This document shows positions 28,106 through 33,582 of a stretch of DNA of 64,000 nt, piece by piece. This DNA is from Maridesulfovibrio hydrothermalis AM13 = DSM 14728 (GTDB lineage: Bacteria > Desulfobacterota > Desulfovibrionia > Desulfovibrionales > Desulfovibrionaceae): the NCBI RefSeq assembly GCF_000331025.1, contig NC_020055.1, forward strand, positions 470,370 through 534,369, given 5' to 3'. Both the position numbers and the translations under genes were made by a program. The first letter of the stretch is position 1. Each line of letters begins with the position of its first letter. Under the pieces are notes generated by a model, which was given only the letters and a program-made list of their open reading frames with translations, did no database searches and had not been told where the DNA came from.

Positions 28106-29383
28106 ATGACAGAGCCATCTTACAGAGAAATGTGGGAAAATCTGAATCTGGACATTGAAGCCCATGATGGACTTCTGGAAGTGCTGGGTAAATTTTACGG
28201 GGATATCTACATGAGCCAGCAAGGCCGCTTGCAGGGCATGGAATATCTGGATTTCGTGCTTTCAGAGGTGCACGGCCTGCGTGTGAAGGAACTGATCGAT
28301 GCCAAAAATGCCGGACGCAAAATAATCGGTTCATTCTGCGTCTTTGTGCCGGAAGAAATCACTCTGGCTCTTGATGCAATTCAGGTCGGTCTCTGTGCCG
28401 GCGCAGATGCCGGAACAGAAGCTGCCGAAACGGTTGTACCACGCAATACCTGTGCTCTGATCAAATCATTCATCGGTTTTAAGATGGCAAGGATCTGTCC
28501 TTACACCGAATCATGCGACCTGATCATAGGCGAGACCACCTGCGACGGGAAGAAGAAAGCATACGAAGCATTCGGTGAAATGGCTCCCATGCATGTGATG
28601 GAAGTACCCCAGCGCAAAGAAGCAGACGATCGCGTTTTATGGAAAGCAGAAGTGCTGCGGTTCAAGGATAAACTGGAAAAACTTACCGGGAAAAAAGTCA
28701 GTGCCGCAGCTCTCAAAAAAGGCATAAAAACAGTCAATGACAAGAGACGCGCCCTGCAAAGACTTAACGTTTTGCGCGCAGCTGACCCGACTCCTATTTC
28801 AGGGCGTGATGTACTGCTTATCAATCAAATCAGTTTCTATGATGATCCGGTTCGTTTCACTCAGTCCATCAATACCCTCTGCGATCAGATTGAAGAACGC
28901 ATTGACAGAAATGAAGGTATTGCTCCGGCAAAAACACCCCGGCTCATGCTGGCCGGTTGTCCTATGGCTGTCCCCAACTGGAAACTGCCATATATCATTG
29001 AAAGCTCCGGAGCGGTTGTTGTTTCAGAAGAATCCTGCATAGGAACCCGCAACACCCGAGACCTCGTTGATGAATCAGGCGAAACCGTTGATGAAATGAT
29101 CGATGCCATCTGTGATCGATACATGAAAATTGACTGCGCCTGCTTCACTCCCAACAACGAACGCATGGAAAACATCAAAAAACTGGCCGAAGAAACAAAA
29201 GTTGACGGCGTTATTCATTACTCTCTCATGTTCTGCCAGCCATACACCCACGAGGCTTTCAAGGTAGAAAAAACTTTGACACAGGCGCAGGTTCCCATGC
29301 TTTCAATTGAAACCGATTACAGCATGGAGGATGTGGAGCAGTTGAAAACACGGGTAGAAGCCTTTGTTGAAATGATTTCGTAG
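28106..29383 (+). CDS. Double-cubane-cluster reductase (2-hydroxyacyl-CoA dehydratase D-like)
   Basis: A 425-residue cytoplasmic protein of the HgdB/BcrC-like superfamily. Family features are GSFCVFVPEEI (Cys78), GLCAGADAG (Cys97), NTCALIKS (Cys116), CPYTESCDLIIGETTCDGKKK (Cys131, 137, 146), GCPMAVPNWK, EESCIGTRNTR and MFCQPYTHEA. The partnership with a single activator ATPase and absence of a second dehydratase subunit match the double-cubane [8Fe-9S] protein DCCP described from Carboxydothermus, which carries out ATP-dependent low-potential reductions. The natural substrate is unknown. GGGAG precedes the ATG. The 2-hydroxyglutaryl-CoA or benzoyl-CoA type is less likely because those are multi-subunit. 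Confidence 0.82.
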   Translation: MTEPSYREMWENLNLDIEAHDGLLEVLGKFYGDIYMSQQGRLQGMEYLDFVLSEVHGLRVKELIDAKNAGRKIIGSFCVFVPEEITLALDAIQVGLCAGADAGTEAAETVVPRNTCALIKSFIGFKMARICPYTESCDLIIGETTCDGKKKAYEAFGEMAPMHVMEVPQRKEADDRVLWKAEVLRFKDKLEKLTGKKVSAAALKKGIKTVNDKRRALQRLNVLRAADPTPISGRDVLLINQISFYDDPVRFTQSINTLCDQIEERIDRNEGIAPAKTPRLMLAGCPMAVPNWKLPYIIESSGAVVVSEESCIGTRNTRDLVDESGETVDEMIDAICDRYMKIDCACFTPNNERMENIKKLAEETKVDGVIHYSLMFCQPYTHEAFKVEKTLTQAQVPMLSIETDYSMEDVEQLKTRVEAFVEMIS

Positions 29384-29425
29384 AGCTTAAGACAAGAACA
29401 AATGCGCGCGTTTAATTTCCGGCAG

Positions 29426-29448
29426 CCGGAGGGGATAATCCCCTCCGG
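29426..29448 (+). terminator. Hairpin between the double-cubane reductase and its activator
   Basis: CCGGAGGGG pairs with CCCCTCCGG around ATAAT. No T-run follows, so it may cause partial termination or protect the mRNA. A second weaker repeat AACAGCA...TGCTGTT follows about 50 bases on. Confidence 0.45.
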
Positions 29449-29611
29449 ACTCTCTGTCGACAAAAACATTATTTATTAAGATGCCCTGCTGTCAGCACTA
29501 ACAGCAGCCTGTGCTGTTCCGGCAATTCGAAACATCATAAAAAGTTTAAAAGTCCCCGTATAAACGCGTAATGTATCAAAATCATGTTGTTTTATTTTAT
29601 CAGGAATATTT

Positions 29612-30376
29612 ATGATCGCGGGAATTGATATCGGCTCACGCTCTATGGAGCTTGTTGTTCTGGATGGCGAAAATATTTTTCTTAAACGCAGACTGCCTAC
29701 AACCTTTGATCCGGCCGGTCAGCTGGATATCATTCTGGATGGAACTGAAGTGGACCTGATTTCCGCCACAGGATATGGCCGAAAACTGGTTACGCAGGAT
29801 CTTACCGGCGTGGAGTGTGTGTCTCTTACCGAGATTAAAGCATATGCACTCGGGGTTTCGCACCTTTTCCCTCAGGCACGGACCATTTTAGATATAGGCG
29901 GGCAGGATACCAAGGCTATTTCACTTCTGAAAAACGGCAAAGTCGCAAAATTTGAAATGAATGACCGCTGCGCTGCCGGAACAGGTAAATTTCTGGAACA
30001 TCTCGCCACTGTTTTTCAAATTCCCATTGAAGAATTCGGTGACTATGCTTTAAAAGGAGACAAGGCATTGCAAATCAATAGCATGTGTACTGTTTTTGCA
30101 GAGACCGAAGCCACCTCCCTTATGGCGCAAGGCAGGAATCCCCGCAACATTGCTCTTGGGCTGCATAGTTCCATTGTACGGCGCACCACGAATATGCTTA
30201 GCAGGGTTGGACTTGTAACTCCTCTGGTCTTTGCCGGCGGAGTCGCAAATAACCCCTGTGTTATCAGTATGTTGAAAGAGTCACTCTCGATAACTCCGGT
30301 TATTCCGGAGGAGCCTGATTTTGCAGGTGCATTAGGCGCGGCTATCTATGGACGGTCTTTATCTAAAATATCTTGA
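29612..30376 (+). CDS. Activator ATPase of the double-cubane reductase (BadF/BcrA/HgdC type)
   Basis: A 254-residue member of the ASKHA ATPase family that uses ATP hydrolysis to fire a low-potential electron into its partner protein. It shows the phosphate-1 loop GIDIGSRS, phosphate-2 DIGGQDTKA, and adenosine-loop VFAGGVANN. Cys120 (NDRCAAGTGKFLE) and Cys159 (NSMCTVFAETE) are the two cysteines that bind the intersubunit [4Fe-4S] cluster in HgdC homologues. It follows the presumed partner by 228 bases on the same strand. An AGGA site precedes the ATG. The short length agrees with the single-domain activator class. Confidence 0.9.
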   Translation: MIAGIDIGSRSMELVVLDGENIFLKRRLPTTFDPAGQLDIILDGTEVDLISATGYGRKLVTQDLTGVECVSLTEIKAYALGVSHLFPQARTILDIGGQDTKAISLLKNGKVAKFEMNDRCAAGTGKFLEHLATVFQIPIEEFGDYALKGDKALQINSMCTVFAETEATSLMAQGRNPRNIALGLHSSIVRRTTNMLSRVGLVTPLVFAGGVANNPCVISMLKESLSITPVIPEEPDFAGALGAAIYGRSLSKIS

Positions 30377-30482: not shown

Positions 30483-31988
30483 ATGTCCGAGAAAAACTTG
30501 GAAACAAATGGCGAAGAGAACTTTGCCGAACTGTTTGAAGCCTTCCAGTCCGAATCCAACGACAATCTTCAGGTCGGAGATCAGATCAAGGGAACTGTAA
30601 TTTCCATCACTAAAGATTCCGTGTTTATCGACACCGGATCTAAAGTTGACGGAGTTGTAACCCGAGACGAACTGACCAATGAGGAAGGTGAACTGACCGT
30701 TAACGACGGAGACATCGTAGAACTCTACGTAATCTCCATGAACAACAACGAAGTCGTCCTTTCCAAAGCCATGTCCGGCGCAGGCGGACTCAATATGCTG
30801 CGTGAAGCATTTGAGAACTCCGTCCCTGTTGAGGGCAAGGTTGAGGAAACCTGCAAAGGCGGTTTCAGAGTAAAAATGATGCACCGCAAGGTGTTCTGCC
30901 CTGTCAGCCAGATTGACACAACCTTTGTGGAAAATCCCGAAGAGTATGTCGGCAGCACCCACAATTTTCAGGTCATCAAGTTCGAAGAAAACGGTCGCAA
31001 CATTGTTGTTTCCCGTAGAGTCCTTCTCGAACAGGAACAGGAAAAAGCACGCGAACAATTCATGCAGGATGTTCAGCCCGATGCAGTCCTTGACGGACGC
31101 GTTACAAAGCTTATGCCTTTTGGCGCATTCGTAGAACTTACCCCCGGGGTCGAAGGCATGGTTCATATCTCTGAACTCAGCTGGTCCCGTTCTGCCAAGC
31201 CTGAAGACGTTGTACAGCCCGGCGATGAAGTCACCGTTAGAATTCTGTCTATGGAACCGCGCAAAGATGGAAAGGGCCTCAAAATAGGTCTTTCCCTCAA
31301 GCAGCTTCAGGCTGATCCGTGGGATGAGCTGGGCGACAAATTCAAAGCGGGCGATAAAACAACTGGCACAGTTGCCCGTTGTGCTGACTTCGGCGTATTC
31401 GTTGAAATCGCTCCCGGCATTGAAGGGCTCGTTCACATTTCTGAAATGAGCTACACAAAACGGGTTCATAAACCGGAAGATGAAGTCACTCCCGGTCAGG
31501 AAGTTGCTGTAATGATCAAAGACGTTGATCCGGTTAAACGCCGTATCGGTCTGTCCATGAAAGATGCAGCAGGTGATCCGTGGCTCGACGTTGAAGATAC
31601 CTTCAAAGTCGGTCAGGAAGTAGAGGGAACCGTTGAAAATAAAGCCGAATTCGGTATTTTCATCAACCTCGCCCCCGGTATTACCGGTCTTCTCCCCATG
31701 TCCCGCATCTCCCGCTCCGGCAAACAGTCAGAGCTTGAGTCTTTAAAACCCGGTGACAAGGTGAAAGTATCTATTGAAGAACTTAACACCTCTGACCGTA
31801 AGGTCACTCTCACTGCCGGTGATGCTAAAAAAGAAACCGGCGACAGTGACTGGAAAGAATACAATAAAACTACAGCCTCCAGAAGATCTGCACCACGCAA
31901 ATCAGCTGCTAAAACCTCCGGTGACACTGGTGGATTCGGCGGCCTGCTCGGACAGAAACTTCAAGAAGCCATGAATAAAAAGAATTAA
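30483..31988 (+). CDS. rpsA: 30S ribosomal protein S1 (five S1 domains)
   Basis: A 501-residue RNA-binding protein that helps the 30S subunit recruit mRNA. Five OB-fold S1 domains follow one another: about residues 30-97, 112-180, 196-268, 282-354 and 369-437. Repeats 3 to 5 keep the canonical GxFGxFVExxPGxEGLVHISE pattern, while repeats 1 and 2 are divergent, as usual for the ribosome-binding end. The C-terminal 60 residues are basic and low-complexity. CAGGAG precedes the ATG. E. coli S1 has six domains; five or fewer are common elsewhere. Whether it is the only S1 in the genome cannot be told. Confidence 0.9.
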   Translation: MSEKNLETNGEENFAELFEAFQSESNDNLQVGDQIKGTVISITKDSVFIDTGSKVDGVVTRDELTNEEGELTVNDGDIVELYVISMNNNEVVLSKAMSGAGGLNMLREAFENSVPVEGKVEETCKGGFRVKMMHRKVFCPVSQIDTTFVENPEEYVGSTHNFQVIKFEENGRNIVVSRRVLLEQEQEKAREQFMQDVQPDAVLDGRVTKLMPFGAFVELTPGVEGMVHISELSWSRSAKPEDVVQPGDEVTVRILSMEPRKDGKGLKIGLSLKQLQADPWDELGDKFKAGDKTTGTVARCADFGVFVEIAPGIEGLVHISEMSYTKRVHKPEDEVTPGQEVAVMIKDVDPVKRRIGLSMKDAAGDPWLDVEDTFKVGQEVEGTVENKAEFGIFINLAPGITGLLPMSRISRSGKQSELESLKPGDKVKVSIEELNTSDRKVTLTAGDAKKETGDSDWKEYNKTTASRRSAPRKSAAKTSGDTGGFGGLLGQKLQEAMNKKN

Positions 31989-31991
31989 CCG

Positions 31992-32034
31992 TTAAGGCCG
32001 GATTCCCTTTCCGGGATTCCGGCCTTAATTTTAC
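31992..32034 (+). terminator. Rho-independent terminator of rpsA
   Basis: TTAAGGCCGGA (31992-32002) pairs with TCCGGCCTTAA (32018-32028), with inner TCCC/GGGA pairs, and is followed by TTTT. It ends only a few bases before the start codon of the next small gene. Confidence 0.92.
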
Positions 32035-32040
32035 CATGCC

Positions 32041-32286
32041 ATGAATAACAACGACACTATTGACTGCTGGACAGATTGCTGAACAGGCTTAAAGAAGGCG
32101 AGTTCCCGCCTGCACCACCTTAAGCCCGGCATGACGGCATCCGTTGAAATCACCAGCAATAAAATAGACAGAATCGAAAGCATTGCCAGAGTAAGGCGTG
32201 CCGAGATTATTGAAGAACTTCCCGCCGAAGAAGGGCGAGTCATTATCGTTCTTCGCAAAAAAGAAATTTCTTCCACTTTCTTTTAG
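32041..32286 (+). CDS. TusA-like protein with in-frame UGA, candidate selenoprotein
   Basis: Reading from ATG 32041 the frame meets TGA at 32080-32082 and then stays open to TAG at 32284-32286. Read with selenocysteine it encodes 81 residues: Cys9, Cys13, Sec14. The part after Cys13 aligns without gaps to E. coli TusA: the PG turn is 16-17 residues after the catalytic Cys in both, and an RK pair falls at Cys+59/60 in both. TID before it parallels TLD of TusA. Thus coding similarity spans both sides of the TGA, with Sec where TusA has Pro of its CP motif. TusA proteins carry persulfide sulfur. A SECIS-like hairpin follows. No good Shine-Dalgarno is visible, which is the main weakness. A TSUP transporter follows 41 bases on. 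Confidence 0.68.
32083..32126 (+). promoter_or_regulatory. SECIS-like hairpin directly after the in-frame UGA
   Basis: GGCTTAA (32086-32092) pairs exactly with TTAAGCC (32120-32126), and within it AGGCG (32096-32100) pairs with CGCCT (32107-32111) around the loop AGTTCC. The loop has G in its second position followed by T, and begins 18 bases after the TGA, inside the 16-37 range known for bacterial SECIS elements and equal to the E. coli fdhF spacing. Confidence 0.6.
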
Positions 32287-32327
32287 CTGCAACAAGCGTG
32301 CAGCTTATCCTCTTTTAAGGATCTGCC

Positions 32328-33050
32328 ATGTATCCCTTTCTGCTTGTGCCACTTATTTTTCTGAGTGCCGGAATGCTGCAAGGCCTTACCGGCTTCGGCT
32401 GTGCGCTTATTGCCATGCCCCTTCTATCATACATAATTGATATCAAGATTGCTGTTCCGGTCTGCACACTCTGCGGAGTGTTTATCAACCTCAATATGGC
32501 CCATAAGCTGCGCGCAAATATTGACCGTAAAAAAATTATGCCACTCATTATCGGCAGTGTGCCCGGCTCCATTTTCGGGACTATCGCTCTCAAGGAAATT
32601 AACAGTGATTACATCAGACTTTTTCTCGGTGTGCTTATTGCCGGCTTTTCAACCTATTCTCTGCTGACCAAACCCGCCAAGTACAACATCAGTTCCAAAT
32701 GGGGCTACTTTTCCGGCTTTCTTACCGGTGCGATATCCGCGTCAGTCAGCGCGGGCGGACCTCCGACCATAATCTACTCCTCGCTTAGCGGCTGGAGCAA
32801 AGACGATTTCAAAGCAACCCTTGCCAGCTTTTTTCTCGTGGCAGGAGTCATGGCGGCAATCGGCCATCTGATCAGCGGCCTGACTACCGTCTATGCCTTT
32901 CAGCTTTTTATGGCCTCACTGCTTCCTATTGTCCTCGGAATATATCTGGGCACTAAATTATCGAGCAAAGTTTCTGAAGAACTTTACAAAAGAATCGTCA
33001 TGATCCTGCTTGTCTTCATGGGAATCATGCTTATAATTCAGAACGTATAG
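32328..33050 (+). CDS. TSUP (TauE/SafE) family membrane transporter
   Basis: A 240-residue protein with about seven to eight hydrophobic helices and the duplicated family pattern (GLTGFGCALIAMPLL near residue 20; GAISASVSAGGPPTIIY near residue 135). TSUP proteins move sulfite, sulfoacetate, thiosulfate or related sulfur anions. It follows the TusA-like gene closely; an AGCTGCA/TGCAGCT hairpin (32285-32305) lies between. TusA-family proteins are repeatedly found with sulfur-compound membrane carriers, so a role in sulfur or selenium compound movement is inferred. AAGGA precedes the ATG. Confidence 0.88.
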   Translation: MYPFLLVPLIFLSAGMLQGLTGFGCALIAMPLLSYIIDIKIAVPVCTLCGVFINLNMAHKLRANIDRKKIMPLIIGSVPGSIFGTIALKEINSDYIRLFLGVLIAGFSTYSLLTKPAKYNISSKWGYFSGFLTGAISASVSAGGPPTIIYSSLSGWSKDDFKATLASFFLVAGVMAAIGHLISGLTTVYAFQLFMASLLPIVLGIYLGTKLSSKVSEELYKRIVMILLVFMGIMLIIQNV

Positions 33051-33081: not shown

Positions 33082-33582
33082 ATGTTTGCGAAAATTTTCA
33101 TCGCTTTTGTTGTCATCCCTCTTTTTGATCTTTTCCTTCTGGTTCAGGTTGGATCAAAAATCGGAACTTTAAATGCTATCGCCTTATGCCTGCTCACTGC
33201 CTTTGCAGGGGCGTCACTTGCCCGTTCACAAGGTATGGCAACCATGCAGAAAGTCCGTGAGAATATGGATAAAGGCATTACGCCGGCTGAAGATATTCTA
33301 GACGCTGTAATTATATTTGCAGCAGGACTGGTGCTGCTGACACCCGGATTCATTACCGATGCCTTCGGTCTGCTGCTTCTGTTCCCGCTCACCCGCGGCT
33401 ATTTCAAACGCTGGCTCAGAGTTCAGCTCGAAGCAAAAATGAAACAGCCCAATGTACACGTCACCTATCACAACACAGAATTCAAAGCGTGGACCAATCA
33501 GGATCAGCCTAAACAAAGAATCGACAACGTCATCGACATAGATGTCGAATCTGACCATAAAAATGATAAGCCGCTTCAATAA
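33082..33582 (+). CDS. fxsA: FxsA family membrane protein
   Basis: A 166-residue protein with the FxsA core in residues 1-110: FVVIPLFDLFLLVQVGSKIG, an ALARSQG-like loop (ASLARSQG) and GLVLLTPGFITDAFGLLLLFPLTR. In E. coli FxsA overproduction relieves exclusion of phage T7 by F plasmid; its normal role is unclear. The C-terminal 50 residues are charged and probably cytoplasmic. GGAG lies about 10 bases before the ATG. It probably shares a transcript with the TSUP gene 31 bases upstream. Confidence 0.9.
   Translation: MFAKIFIAFVVIPLFDLFLLVQVGSKIGTLNAIALCLLTAFAGASLARSQGMATMQKVRENMDKGITPAEDILDAVIIFAAGLVLLTPGFITDAFGLLLLFPLTRGYFKRWLRVQLEAKMKQPNVHVTYHNTEFKAWTNQDQPKQRIDNVIDIDVESDHKNDKPLQ

Follow-up and report, generated by a model that had tools for sequence, protein, structure and literature searches.

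A conserved in-frame UGA beside the cysteine of a small TusA-like protein points to a selenoprotein family in one bacterial phylum

The window, a 64,000-nucleotide stretch of a 3.71-Mb genome (G000), carries a short gene between rpsA and a gene for a membrane protein. It had been proposed, from the letters of the DNA, to encode a TusA-like selenoprotein translated through an in-frame UGA. The features of the locus are as follows.

30483-31988, + strand: rpsA (30S ribosomal protein S1; NF010379, 772 bits), upstream in 16/16 carriers of the window's genus
32041-32286, + strand: putative TusA-like selenoprotein CDS, with stop codon TAG at 32284-32286
32077-32079, + strand: Cys13 codon TGC, Cys in 79/79 accepted genes, paired by hhalign with the active Cys of TusA
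32080-32082, + strand: putative Sec14 codon TGA, in the place of Pro in the TusA CP motif, TGA in 79/79 accepted genes
32086-32126, + strand: lower stem as in the window sequence, GGCTTAA (32086-32092) with TTAAGCC (32120-32126)
32096-32111, + strand: apical hairpin of the putative bSECIS element, stem 32096-32100 with 32107-32111, loop AGTTCC at 32101-32106
32328-33050, + strand: TauE/SafE (TSUP) membrane protein (PF01925, E 2e-37), downstream in 16/16 genus carriers
33082-33582, + strand: FxsA family protein (PF04186), the next gene downstream of TSUP, within 4 kb in 16/16 genus carriers

A single frame indeed runs in the window from ATG 32041 through TGA 32080 to TAG 32284 and gives 81 residues when TGA is taken as Sec, and the PG at +16/+17 and RK at +59/+60 that had been pointed out, counted from Cys13, are present in its product. 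The start lies ~15 bases 3' of an inverted repeat with a T-rich tail after rpsA (31996-32041, recognised by eye). This repeat is absent from the output of a terminator scan, which gave one candidate, at 32285-32305, where 0.8 would be expected by chance. No Shine-Dalgarno sequence was evident before the ATG in the start regions inspected in the window's genus; GGAGG precedes the start of the gene in several other genera.

A protein search matched 21 of 58 genomes, the window's own included, and every match contained an in-frame TGA; most of these 21 matches share CWxDCUxGF on the correct strand. With a profile of these matches, at least 54 of 348 genomes of the class were found to carry the gene, with one TGA within each match. 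A profile of the 54 class genes matched 24 of 395 genomes of the phylum, 23 of them with a TGA (the window among them), and the 22 new genes mostly have DYR or D-S-[RK] before xDCU/xECU in place of CW. The 24th match (G613), 15 residues antisense to a 2403-aa ORF, was dropped. We next built a joint profile from 57 of the 76 genes known at that stage; among 218 of the 395 phylum genomes it matched 20, of which 12 had a TGA (three of them new) and eight were weak matches lacking a stop. Leaving out G613 and these eight genomes, we accepted at least 79 genes, 54 from the class and 25 from the rest of the phylum; the first pass of the genome search was loose and the number of candidates it scored was capped, so these counts are lower bounds and some members may be missed.

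As anticipated for a genuine selenoprotein, the relatives keep the TGA at the same codon: it directly follows an invariant Cys in 79/79 accepted genes, within a motif [D/E]-C-U whose first residue is Asp in 76 and Glu in three. A second Cys, four residues N-terminal of Cys13, occurs in 53 genes and is absent in 26. We also searched contigs with a DNA pattern and found 22 loci, ten of which belong to the family and lie in the same records as ten whole-genome carriers, so that they were not recounted; the other 12, which come from other taxa, are unlike the family in sequence and were taken as chance matches. Since it specifies Glu after GFx, this pattern is blind to the second clade, which has Asp there, and the family as delimited here spans one phylum. 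A back-translated protein-alignment search of genome contigs, with Cys at the Sec place of the pattern, returned no relative.

The proposed SECIS-like hairpin was also recovered. The 48 bases after the TGA fold, the lower stem beginning three bases and the AGTTCC loop 18 bases behind it, with an upper stem of 5 bp. Taken alone, the window hairpin is unexceptional (z -1.27 when compared with dinucleotide shuffles and -1.11, p 0.15, with synonymous recodings), which would suit the view that UGA 32080 is an ordinary stop and that the similarity behind it reflects chance or a decayed gene. Across the class set of 54 genes, mean z against synonymous recoding is -1.97 for the 36 bases that follow the TGA, as compared with -0.14 and -0.72 for the next two stretches, and p is at or below 0.05 in 33/54 genes versus 5/54 and 6/54. 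The pairing of the upper hairpin is kept in 76/79 genes, as against 15.5 expected from synonymous recoding; shifting the structure by 3 to 12 bases leaves it in only 1 to 8 of the 79. It occurs in two registers one base apart, with 31 genes perfect in one and 45 having at least 5/6 pairs in the other; each gene was assigned to the register that fitted it best, a choice that favours pairing, and the recoding control was given equal freedom. Paired bases change on both sides (17 GC, 11 AT and 2 CG at positions 19-30 in one register; 20 CG and 19 TA at positions 20-27 in the other), and AGTT occupies positions 22-25 in 62/79 genes. The pairing fails in G106, G279 and G251.

The part of PMC13188914 consulted describes a bSECIS element by a loop of 3-9 nt, an upper stem of 4-16 bp, a spacing of 16-37 nt, a G in the first two loop positions and an MFE of -7.5 or lower. 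Scored with the upper limit of stem length not enforced, the window and 76/79 genes agree with this model, versus 12.0 expected from synonymous recoding, the exceptions being G279, G118 and G611. The 79 sequences are related, so that none of these hairpin counts is independent. RNAalifold found no pair in the 54 class DNA stretches because the two registers differ by one base. An Rfam match to a Tetrahymena snoRNA (30.6 bits against a gathering score of 100; E 0.00023) was taken as spurious.

Behind the hairpin, dN/dS was below 0.3 in 49 of 50 close pairs and 0.67, from few changes, in the last; these pairs, selected for equal length and low divergence, overlap one another, and the window is in none of them. 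This stretch evolves as coding sequence in close relatives, in which we saw no frame decay behind the TGA. The invariant TGA, the hairpin in 76/79 genes and the purifying selection behind the UGA stand together against an ordinary stop, a reading to which we give next to no probability.

The genome also has the machinery that had been called for: selA (602 bits), selB (390 bits), tRNA-Sec (selC, 83.3 bits against a cut-off of 47 bits) and selD (331 bits) are all over their cut-offs, and selA and selB lie close together. The match to selD itself (L130, G000:C2:575466-576386) contains an in-frame TGA, and this selD is probably a selenoprotein too. In the 395-genome search, selB was over cut-off in 23/23 TGA carriers, which is a weak test because 353/395 genomes have selB. 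Among the class carriers, a selB match of E 1e-88 or lower was obtained in 50/54, and a full-strength match is absent in four drafts of 230 to 590 contigs (G029, G112, G251, G279). None of the observations named beforehand as refuting the proposal was made. Comparison between genomes supplies the gene, the conserved UGA, the Sec machinery, the hairpin and, for close relatives, purifying selection behind it, and we infer that UGA 32080 is almost certainly read as selenocysteine.

What kind of protein results is a separate question, and here the sequence-only reading, which called it TusA-like, is supported. AlphaFold2, given an alignment of 11 sequences with Cys substituted for Sec, predicts a model (pLDDT 83, pTM 0.67) with the order E-H-E-H-E-E and helix 1 beginning at residue 13, and this predicted order is that of the TusA fold, beta-alpha-beta-alpha-beta-beta. 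Foldseek placed TsuA-TsuB at ranks 1-3, IscS-bound TusA at 4, HP1264 at 5, YhhP at 6 and a SirA-like protein at 8. The TusA-type rows have a TM to query of 0.65-0.73. An E of 0.001 is reached by just two rows, and from rank 7 on the ranking includes methyltransferases and other unrelated proteins. In hhalign, a 57-row profile aligned with 12 TusA-type sequences at a probability of 88% (E 3.1e-6) and paired Cys13 with the active Cys of TusA and Sec14 with the Pro that follows, just as had been claimed; the alignment obtained with the 54-row class profile is weaker (58%) and begins behind Sec. The CP pair is invariant in 12/12 aligned ordinary TusA sequences, and the CPxP motif is altered in the family, which retains the Cys and has Sec for the first Pro.

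By its curated rule, the family is outside Pfam TusA (PF01206). The model matches 7/54 members at E 10 and 4/57 at E 0.01, and two of ten scanned members score 27.9 and 22.2 bits, below the cut-off of 28.6, the higher value belonging to the member with the best E-value in both Pfam TusA searches; the other eight scanned members gave no match to it. Searching Pfam with the window protein gave no match, and the family profile, run by hmmsearch against PDB sequences, returned nothing related. The TusA likeness thus stands on the predicted fold and the profile alignment and falls short at the Pfam cut-off; the family probably descends from TusA. The window's own genome has one PF01206 match (L185, G000:C2:2775186-2775374), which is over the cut-off and has CPQP in a 220-aa frame, and it appears YedF-like by length and motif.

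Several known systems resemble the family in part. With TusA/SirA proteins (PF01206) it shares the predicted fold, the length and the conserved Cys with which helix 1 begins, whereas Sec in place of the Pro after that Cys leaves it without CPxP. YedF, which combines SirA-like and DsrE-like domains, also offers a TusA-like domain with a selenium link, but it has an ordinary CPxP and a second domain, and the portion of PMC5322559 consulted describes no Sec in it. YeeD/TsuB with YeeE/TsuA (8j4c, 8k1r), a thiosulfate-uptake complex, fills the top three Foldseek rows; the neighbour of the window gene, in contrast, is TSUP, and in one genus only. Finally, an adjacent Cys-Sec pair is found in SaoL, SaoC, SaoB, HgcA, MbdU, KCU-star and CopZ-type form 2 (PMC13188914 Table 1), but these belong to other families with other domain ids.

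We surveyed the neighbours by tblastn within about 5 kb, contig ends cutting some loci. The order rpsA - gene - TSUP, with fxsA further along, is found in 16 of the 54 class carriers. The adjoining TSUP transporter had been offered as a clue; it is there in all 16 genus carriers and in none of the other 63 loci. We therefore rejected TSUP as a general partner (16/79 loci) and regard it as a weak clue to function, since it is a neighbour in one genus only among the loci examined. The genes before rpsA, at 28106-30376, encode a double-cubane-cluster reductase (NF040772, 493 bits), present in 16/16 genus loci, and an acyl-CoA dehydratase activase, present in 15/16; a 2-hydroxyglutaryl-CoA dehydratase subunit and its activase are linked with selenium genes in Slackia in the consulted part of PMC5322559 (Table 1).

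A second arrangement is found in 34/54 class loci, with a nucleotide-sugar dehydrogenase upstream and futalosine hydrolase, an enzyme of menaquinone synthesis, downstream; ubiE is present in 33 of these loci, a polyprenyl synthase in 32 and the menaquinone-biosynthesis gene PF02621 in seven, the names being taken from single representatives. One genome (G338) has an additional ORF between the dehydrogenase and the selenoprotein gene. This quinone-gene context, together with the vicinal Cys-Sec pair, favours the main rival to the carrier role discussed below, namely that the same selenoprotein is a redox module in which Cys13 and Sec14 would form a vicinal selenenylsulfide, cycle between reduced and oxidised states and act on a partner that could be a disulfide, a polysulfide, a peroxide or linked to quinones. 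In mammalian thioredoxin reductase, the Gly-Cys-Sec-Gly tail cycles as a selenenylsulfide in this way. The Cys adjoins Sec in every accepted gene, and the extra Cys four residues before Cys13 would also fit, but that Cys is missing in 26/79 genes, the menaquinone context was found by the tblastn survey neither in the window's genus nor outside the class, and the relatives of TusA fold are carriers. We consider the redox role possible, on the doubtful side.

The other class loci, four of the 54 (L107, L081, L076, L101), have the gene beside a conserved gene and show neither of the two usual contexts; a representative of that conserved neighbour has no Pfam or NCBIfam match. Outside the class, the 25 loci have LysR upstream (six), a CbiK-like gene downstream (seven), DusB downstream (six) or none of these (six). 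DusB is over its NCBIfam cut-off and the CbiK-like protein below (204 of 400 bits). Of the six LysR proteins, four were compared with NF040786 (selenium metabolism-associated LysR), and all four scored above its cut-off, at 254.6 to 273.3 against 250; we infer that NF040786 corresponds to the LysR_Se subfamily of PMC5322559, which that paper, in the part consulted, confines to SelD-containing organisms. In five of the six loci in which the gene precedes dusB (L158, L159, L160, L163, L172, L173), it lies behind a metal-type ABC transporter ATPase whose best NCBIfam match, zinc AztA, is below cut-off. The neighbours thus differ by lineage and mark no single pathway.

A close same-strand gene lies downstream in most class loci and in 6/25 of the others, as would be expected if passage of the ribosome over the UGA served as a selenium sensor setting the next gene (TSUP, mqnB or dusB), with the peptide itself of minor importance. 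This is improbable in our view, given that AlphaFold2 predicts a domain fold for the protein, that the part encoded behind the UGA shows purifying selection in close relatives and that the downstream genes differ among lineages.

We also looked for members with Cys at the Sec position, which are usual for bacterial selenoproteins, if not required, and found none. No Cys form was accepted in the class (348 genomes), phylum (395) or joint-profile (218) searches, in which the matches of G357 and G451 were left unopened; since Cys filled the Sec column of the profiles, a Cys form should score no worse. Among the matches lacking a stop, those of G506 and G363 are ordinary TusA, those of G349 and G510 lie in a different frame of a longer ORF, that of G554 lies opposite a longer ORF, and that of G531 is an unrelated repeat by its reading. 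One genome of the window's own genus (G016) gave no match in either the protein or the class profile search. We further checked the same locus in 40 chosen non-carriers, 31 of which have futalosine hydrolase, and fetched 30 loci. In 20 of them 8 to 193 bases separate the end of the dehydrogenase match from the hydrolase match that follows, and there was no match to the profile (best E 6.6); in the remaining ten, no dehydrogenase was seen within the sequence fetched. So far the family has been encountered in a Sec form alone, a pattern suggesting that the protein's work requires selenium.

This pattern may bear on the absence of the family from existing lists. NCBIfam has no fitting model, the one match among 57 members at E 0.01 being to an unrelated TrkA model. 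There is no TusA/SirA entry among the 119 families of PMC13188914 Table 1, and the words are absent from its text; nor did we find SirA/TusA in the consulted parts of PMC12013277, PMC5029168, PMC9312934, PMC8318568, PMC2398784 and PMC1794560. The Sec-containing sulfurtransferase of several such lists, as far as these parts go, is given either as rhodanese-type or by a COG number (COG0607 or COG2897), its type being unspecified in PMC8318568. In the open-access literature consulted in part, PMC2432076 included, there is no report of a Sec-containing TusA/SirA, and an entry outside that literature or in supplements is possible. Transcripts of tusA and tusD rise under selenium depletion in Methanococcus maripaludis, where the consulted part of PMC11097638 does not treat them as selenoproteins. 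Numerous Cys homologues are known for almost all selenoproteins, and homology-based search relies on them (PMC12013277, in the part consulted). A Sec-only family would escape such a search, which may explain its absence from the lists searched. It is very likely that the gene encodes a true selenoprotein of a family absent from every catalogue searched, a judgement that concerns identity and not function.

As for mechanism, SelB and tRNA-Sec would decode UGA 32080 with the help of the bSECIS hairpin just behind it. The product would be a small protein of the TusA fold, a fold known here by prediction only, with Cys13 where TusA carries sulfur and Sec14 in place of the conserved Pro, so that a neighbouring Cys-Sec pair opening helix 1 would form the active site. 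Acting as a TusA-like carrier, it would take up a single chalcogen atom, either sulfane sulfur or selenium, and hand it on; the selenol would serve to attack the donor or to release the cargo. The bacterial group in which the gene occurs includes sulfate reducers. Because of the TusA fold, the retained Cys and the selenium-type LysR neighbour, we favour such a sulfur or selenium carrier as the most likely role, and we hold this tentatively.

A narrower form of the chalcogen-carrier reading, which we consider unlikely, is a strictly selenium-dependent carrier whose Cys-Sec pair would bind selenium and deliver it, for example to SelD, in a sulfide-rich cytoplasm. The in vivo form of selenium and its donor for SelD are incompletely elucidated according to the consulted part of PMC13188914. 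If selenium delivery is true, the protein would be a candidate for this unsettled donor and the family would be one of selenoproteins that has no functional cysteine form. The family would place Sec in the active site of a TusA fold, and the gene described here offers a concrete case in which discrimination between selenium and sulfur may be tested.
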